DNA from: a virus
DNA length: 30,925 bases
Direction: 5' to 3' (one strand)
IMG/VR virus record: IMGVR_UViG_3300046463_000697
Span: 1 to 30,925 of that record
This document shows, piece by piece, positions 7,512 to 7,926 of the stretch. The position numbers and the translations under genes are program-made. Under the pieces are notes generated by a model. It saw only the letters and a program-made list of their open reading frames with translations. It had not been told where the DNA came from and did not search any database. Numbering within the stretch: position 1 is the first letter of the stretch; every line of letters begins with the position of its first letter.

Positions 7512-7926
7512 CTGGCAGACTCACGCGACGCTTGCTCGACTGGCCGGTGACGTGCACCGACTTCGCCTGCTCGAGCGGCTTGACGTGGTAGGCCAGTGCG
7601 GTCACGGACTTGAAGCCGAGCGCCTTTGCGAGCGCGCCAGGCGGCATCGATCCGCCGTGCCGTTTCAGTGTGGCGAGGATGGCCGCGCCGTGATGGTTCA
7701 CGTTAGGGAGGCTCCGCGCTGCGCGATGGCGCGATGCTTGCTCTGTCTGTCTGTCTGTCTGTCTGTCTGTCTGGTGCTTCTTCGCTGCCAGCTTTATCGT
7801 CGTGGGCGAGACCGGTCCGGCCAACTCGCGAAGGCCATCGAGGGCGCGCGCGATCAGCGGTCGGCGACGATCGATTTCCTGTAGTTCCGCTTCGAGTGCA
7901 GCGATGCCGGCGGCGTACGATTCCAT
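7489..7926 (-). CDS. Winged-helix regulator interrupted by a tetranucleotide repeat
   Basis: 145 aa from the ATG at 7926, chosen because GGAG lies nine bases upstream; a GTG at 7953 overlapping the previous stop (GTGA) is the alternative. Residues 1-45 form a helical coiled-coil-like segment (AGIAALEAELQEIDRRRPLI). Residues about 52-62 are the repeat-encoded HQTDRQTDRQTEQ. The C-terminal half is a winged helix: AILATLKRHGGSMPPGALAK, ALGFKSVTALAYHVKPLEQA and a wing KSVHVTGQSSKRRVSL. It is probably a DNA-binding regulator. The linker is encoded by an uninterrupted 4-bp repeat, so gain or loss of one unit would shift the frame and separate the coiled coil from the DNA-binding domain. Confidence 0.7.
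   Translation of the reverse strand: MESYAAGIAALEAELQEIDRRRPLIARALDGLRELAGPVSPTTIKLAAKKHQTDRQTDRQTEQASRHRAARSLPNVNHHGAAILATLKRHGGSMPPGALAKALGFKSVTALAYHVKPLEQAKSVHVTGQSSKRRVSLPDAAKEAP
7742..7773. repeat. Tetranucleotide tract (CTGT)n, 32 bp
   Basis: An uninterrupted period-4 tract, seven full CTGT units from 7743 plus one base before and three after. It lies inside the regulator gene at 7489-7926, where the coding strand reads (CAGA)n and encodes the Gln-Thr-Asp-Arg repeat. Tracts of this length and type are known contingency loci in bacteria such as Haemophilus. Confidence 0.95.

Follow-up and report, generated by a model that had tools for sequence, protein, structure and literature searches.

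Does a run of tetranucleotide repeats in the middle of a phage gene serve as an on/off switch for the protein it encodes? The question is raised by a short gene in the virus record IMGVR_UViG_3300046463_000697 of IMG/VR. The entire record (30,925 bases, GC 64%) was analysed and is referred to here as the window. It appears to represent a temperate tailed phage or a prophage fragment, judging from its integrase, divergent repressor-like, replication-initiation-like, tail and head-tail genes. The tract gene belongs to a minus-strand cluster that starts beside the repressor-like gene (Table 1). Comparison of the integrase yielded no host assignment. The window also contains a 9-bp tandem array at 12346-12550, located within the minus-strand ORF 12220-13392. 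Its unit, GGCGGCCCT, is present in 22.8 copies with 89% matches and encodes Ala/Arg/Asp/Trp repeats, and gain or loss of whole units would preserve the frame.

Table 1. Features of the tract gene and of its surroundings in the window.
Feature	Position	Strand	Remarks
MerR/HTH_17 excisionase-like gene	6961..7170	-	downstream of the tract gene, same cluster
145-aa ORF: helical N-half, QTDR linker, winged-helix-like C-half	7489..7926	-	ATG 7926
Winged-helix-like half from in-frame GTG	7489..7701	-	codon log-odds 16.2 in frame, -16.5 and -19.1 in the other frames; HTH_20 E=5e-4
Stops of both slipped frames	7698..7705	-	TAA 7705-7703 and TGA 7700-7698, flanking GTG 7701-7699
(CAGA)8 tract	7742..7773	-	encodes QTDR; TCTG on the + strand; TRF 8.0 copies
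N-half, 51 codons, predicted long helix	7774..7926	-	codon log-odds 6.5 in frame, -5.1 and -13.6 in the other frames; model pLDDT about 70-85
DNA methyltransferase-like gene	8631..9239	-	phrog_3816 E=1.6e-41; upstream of the tract gene, same cluster
Replication-initiation-like protein	11025..11813	-	phrog_1032 E=1.3e-9; cluster of the tract gene
Cro/C1-type repressor-like gene	15251..15739	+	HTH_26 E=1.2e-6; divergent from the minus-strand cluster
Tyrosine integrase	16102..17184	+	phrog_1 E=1.2e-46; marks a temperate phage

The start codon of the tract gene is preceded by GGAG 9 nt upstream, and an alternative GTG start at 7953 overlaps the stop of the upstream gene. The earlier note had described the tract as encoding a linker between a coiled coil and a DNA-binding domain, and this outline stands as far as a helical N-half, the tract and a winged-helix-like C-half are concerned. 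The N-half forms a single long helix in the AlphaFold model. The C-half is probably, though not securely, a winged helix: its match to the Pfam family HTH_20 is weak and lies under the family cut-off, and the matches of the low-confidence model in the PDB include many winged-helix proteins, all with E above 0.5 and none significant. Codon usage favours the same frame in both halves, indicating that one frame is coding on both sides of the tract, and it prefers no frame in the 39 nt between the tract and the GTG at 7701. The weak HTH match, together with the place of the gene in the cluster beside the repressor-like gene, suggests that the protein is a regulator; the function of the gene is weakly assigned.

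The tract itself is as pure as had been claimed. It spans 32 bp and eight units with 100% matches and without indels (TRF), and contains no synonymous interruption; apart from it, the window has no period-4 run as long as 13 bp. Since the longest period-4 run in 200 first-order Markov simulations with the dinucleotide make-up of the window is 17 bp, the tract is far beyond chance and is best regarded as a product of slippage. An uninterrupted short tandem repeat beyond chance is one hallmark of a contingency locus. Another is that a change of one unit alters the reading frame, and this is also the case here. Computed translations give the full-length protein at 5, 8 or 11 units, and the eight units of the sequence at hand therefore represent the full-length state. 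Slippage by one unit in either direction removes the DNA-binding half, as had been proposed: 6 or 9 units, and likewise 7 or 10 units, lead to products of 71-78 aa without the winged helix. The CAGA repeat is free of stops in every frame, so that the tract reads QTDR in all of them.

Homologues were sought with the whole gene and also with the winged helix alone. No convincing homologue was found in viral contigs, genome contigs, annotated phages or plasmids, nor in the whole records of three contigs that share the integrase or a tail gene with the window, nor in about 400 genomes from the phylum to which an acidobacterial MAG with a distant integrase relative belongs. In addition, the tract gene matched nothing in NCBIfam and PHROGs. 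Two candidates were rejected, one (E=7e-4) containing a stop codon and the other (E=0.08) overlapping a longer unrelated frame.

The repeat, in contrast to the gene, recurs widely. Tracts of this kind had been thought unusual for a phage, a view that is at odds with the counts in viral contigs: CTGT reaches seven units or more in at least 119 stretches, and the count for the control repeat GCAA is 48. One family of PAPS-reductase-like proteins with the motif SGGKDST accounts for at least 46 of the CTGT loci, the tract lying mostly about 130 codons into the gene (L008, L010, L018, L023, L050, L086, L095, L112 and about 38 more contigs), and a representative matches PAPS_reduct (PF01507) on both sides of the tract. 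Among the 31 contigs whose second half is long enough to be seen, this half is shifted by 0, +1 and +2 in 9, 12 and 10 cases (22/31 out of frame), which is close to the thirds expected under free variation. Moreover, the number of units is unequal among viral contigs whose flanks are almost identical: 10 in L050 and L104 versus 12 in L095; 10.5 in L044 versus 9.5 in L101; and 16.25, 20.25 and 14.25 in L077, L099 and L123. The occurrence of all three frames and these differences between near-identical contigs indicate that these tracts do switch, and the PAPS-like family looks like a phage enzyme in which phase variation is widespread. In the open-licence papers to which the literature search was confined, phase variation of phage PAPS reductases is not reported.

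CAGA tracts are also located in or beside genes for C5 cytosine methylases, HsdS and N4/N6 methylases (L073, L044, L033, L039, L067, L084 and L109), and the repeat thus often marks DNA-modification genes in viral contigs. It is widespread in uncultured phages, with the frame distributed over all three phases. Like the window tract, those in the PAPS-like, methylase and HsdS genes lie mid-gene with CAGA on the coding strand. They differ in belonging to DNA-modification-type enzymes, in being usually longer (7.5 to 29.5 units, the range of the PAPS-like tracts) and in being out of frame in about two thirds of cases, and their genes have no homology to the window gene. The loci L035 and L043 are the two ends of a single viral contig, IMGVR_UViG_3300003523_000175; each end falls within a CAGA tract, as though assembly had opened a circular genome at the repeat.

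Both repeat-based phase variation in phage-borne genes and this class of repeat are already known. In Haemophilus influenzae, GACA is a classic contingency repeat, ranging from 8 to 38 units in lgtC (PMC2651432). The tracts of lgtC and pgt1 share with the window tract the repeat class on the coding strand and the hydrophilic, neutral peptide (PMC2651432), but they reside in chromosomal glycosyltransferase genes and their variation from strain to strain is documented. The gene neuO of prophage CUS-3 in E. coli K1 is phage-borne and varies through a heptanucleotide repeat (PMC13001214). As in the window, a simple sequence repeat lies within a phage-borne coding sequence, and the full-length product is made only at repeat numbers that keep the frame (PMC13001214). 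The neuO repeat differs in its position near the 5' end, in its cargo, an O-acetyltransferase, and in the 3-53 repeats known (PMC13001214), whereas the window tract is a mid-gene tetranucleotide in a putative DNA-binding protein and is known from one sequence alone. What is possibly novel is that the DNA-binding protein concerned is the phage's own.

We tentatively favour, with confidence falling a little short of even, a slipped-strand on/off switch of the reading frame in this phage-borne DNA-binding protein. Each CAGA unit gained or lost would shift the frame of the downstream half; every third unit number would give the full protein and the others the helical stub, and in a population of lysogens or phages some members would have the DNA-binding protein and others would lack it. 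The gene has the structure expected of a phase-variable locus, and variation in unit number and frame is seen for CAGA in other phage contigs. The switch is supported by the purity of a tract far above chance in length, by the coding of both halves in one frame at eight units, by the recurrence of CAGA on the coding strand in viral contigs, many of them with DNA-modification genes, by the near-equal frames of the PAPS-like genes, by the differing unit numbers of contigs with near-identical flanks, and by the classic role of the repeat class in H. influenzae. That the tract 7742-7773 varies at a useful rate, that the protein is a regulator and that the switching is under selection are inferences. 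Should the tract vary, this temperate phage would have an inherited random switch in one of its own DNA-binding proteins, and bet-hedging in phage development could be measured directly by counting repeat units in reads. Several points count against the switch. Slippage rates are expected to fall as a tract becomes shorter, and eight units is short. The searched collections yielded no second copy of the locus, leaving variation unseen, and the function of the gene is weakly assigned. In addition, short tracts in other phage proteins of similar layout are always in frame.

These short tracts provide the setting most similar to that of the window gene, which is like them in tract length, position and frame. 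Three unrelated contigs carry them in a single replication-initiation-like family, in the linker between the domains, with 7.25 units in L007/L120, 8.75 in L118 and 6.75 in L135, and the L135 tract reads CAGA on the coding strand as in the other two. A further contig, L076, has 8.0 units in an apparent HTH-type protein without family match. The DnaD/O-like replication-initiation proteins resemble the window protein in having a short in-frame CAGA tract in the linker; they differ in a helicase-loader-type N-terminal domain and a YPRK C-domain and show no sequence relation to the window gene. A quite possible explanation, to which we would give distinctly less than an even chance, is therefore a tolerated linker repeat: past slippage would have expanded CAGA between two domains, in a hydrophilic linker that takes QTDR without harm, and purifying selection would hold the frame, with out-of-frame mutants being lost. 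This is in line with the in-frame linkers of the three unrelated contigs, with the different linkers carried by their relatives L185 and L187, and with the equal unit number of L007 and L120, which come from different samples. The 9-bp array elsewhere in the window points the same way. Counting the window, the five DNA-binding-type tracts all keep the frame (5/5), a small number to which recognition bias contributes in part. In the family where any frame would be recognisable, three independent in-frame cases have a probability of 1/27 under free variation, a hint of constraint rather than proof. A merely tolerated repeat agrees poorly with the perfect purity of the tract, which synonymous changes could stabilise at no cost, and with the PAPS-like genes, in which CAGA is clearly free to change frame.

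The region downstream of the tract allows another outcome of slippage. Both slipped-frame stops fall within 4 nt of the in-frame GTG at 7701, which has GGAG at 7715-7712, 10 nt upstream. Ribosomes in a slipped frame would stop at TAA 7705 or TGA 7700 and may restart at this GTG, so that slippage would yield the helix as one peptide and the winged helix as another protein, about 70 aa long, instead of an off state; in a variant of this scheme, the two overlapping genes would be the normal state and the fusion the rare one. Among positions in the window's genes, 2.0% have an in-frame start with the two stops no more than 6 nt away, and none (0/4516) combines this with a GGAG-type site; the tract gene has the tightest such arrangement among the 60 tract genes examined. 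Moreover, the change from a frame-neutral stretch to a frame-specific one coincides with the GTG. The arrangement, being a post hoc observation, is no more than suggestive; as start codons go, GTG is weaker, a GGAG spacing of 10 nt is long, and no homologue consisting of the winged-helix domain alone was found. Splitting of the protein by slippage is unlikely. We consider it very unlikely that the tract switches the protein, stochastically and heritably, between fused and split forms, by which the winged helix would be released as a polypeptide of its own and the repeat number would toggle phage development instead of turning a gene off.

Least credible is an error in the metagenomic contig, either in the unit number or in the join across the tract: the locus comes from one viral record with no independent copy, and several other viral contigs end inside CAGA tracts, but 32 bp is shorter than the usual read length, and codon usage shows the frame to be kept from one side of the tract to the other.

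Among the viral contigs, L019 carries a CAGA tract and a GCAA tract less than 100 bp apart.
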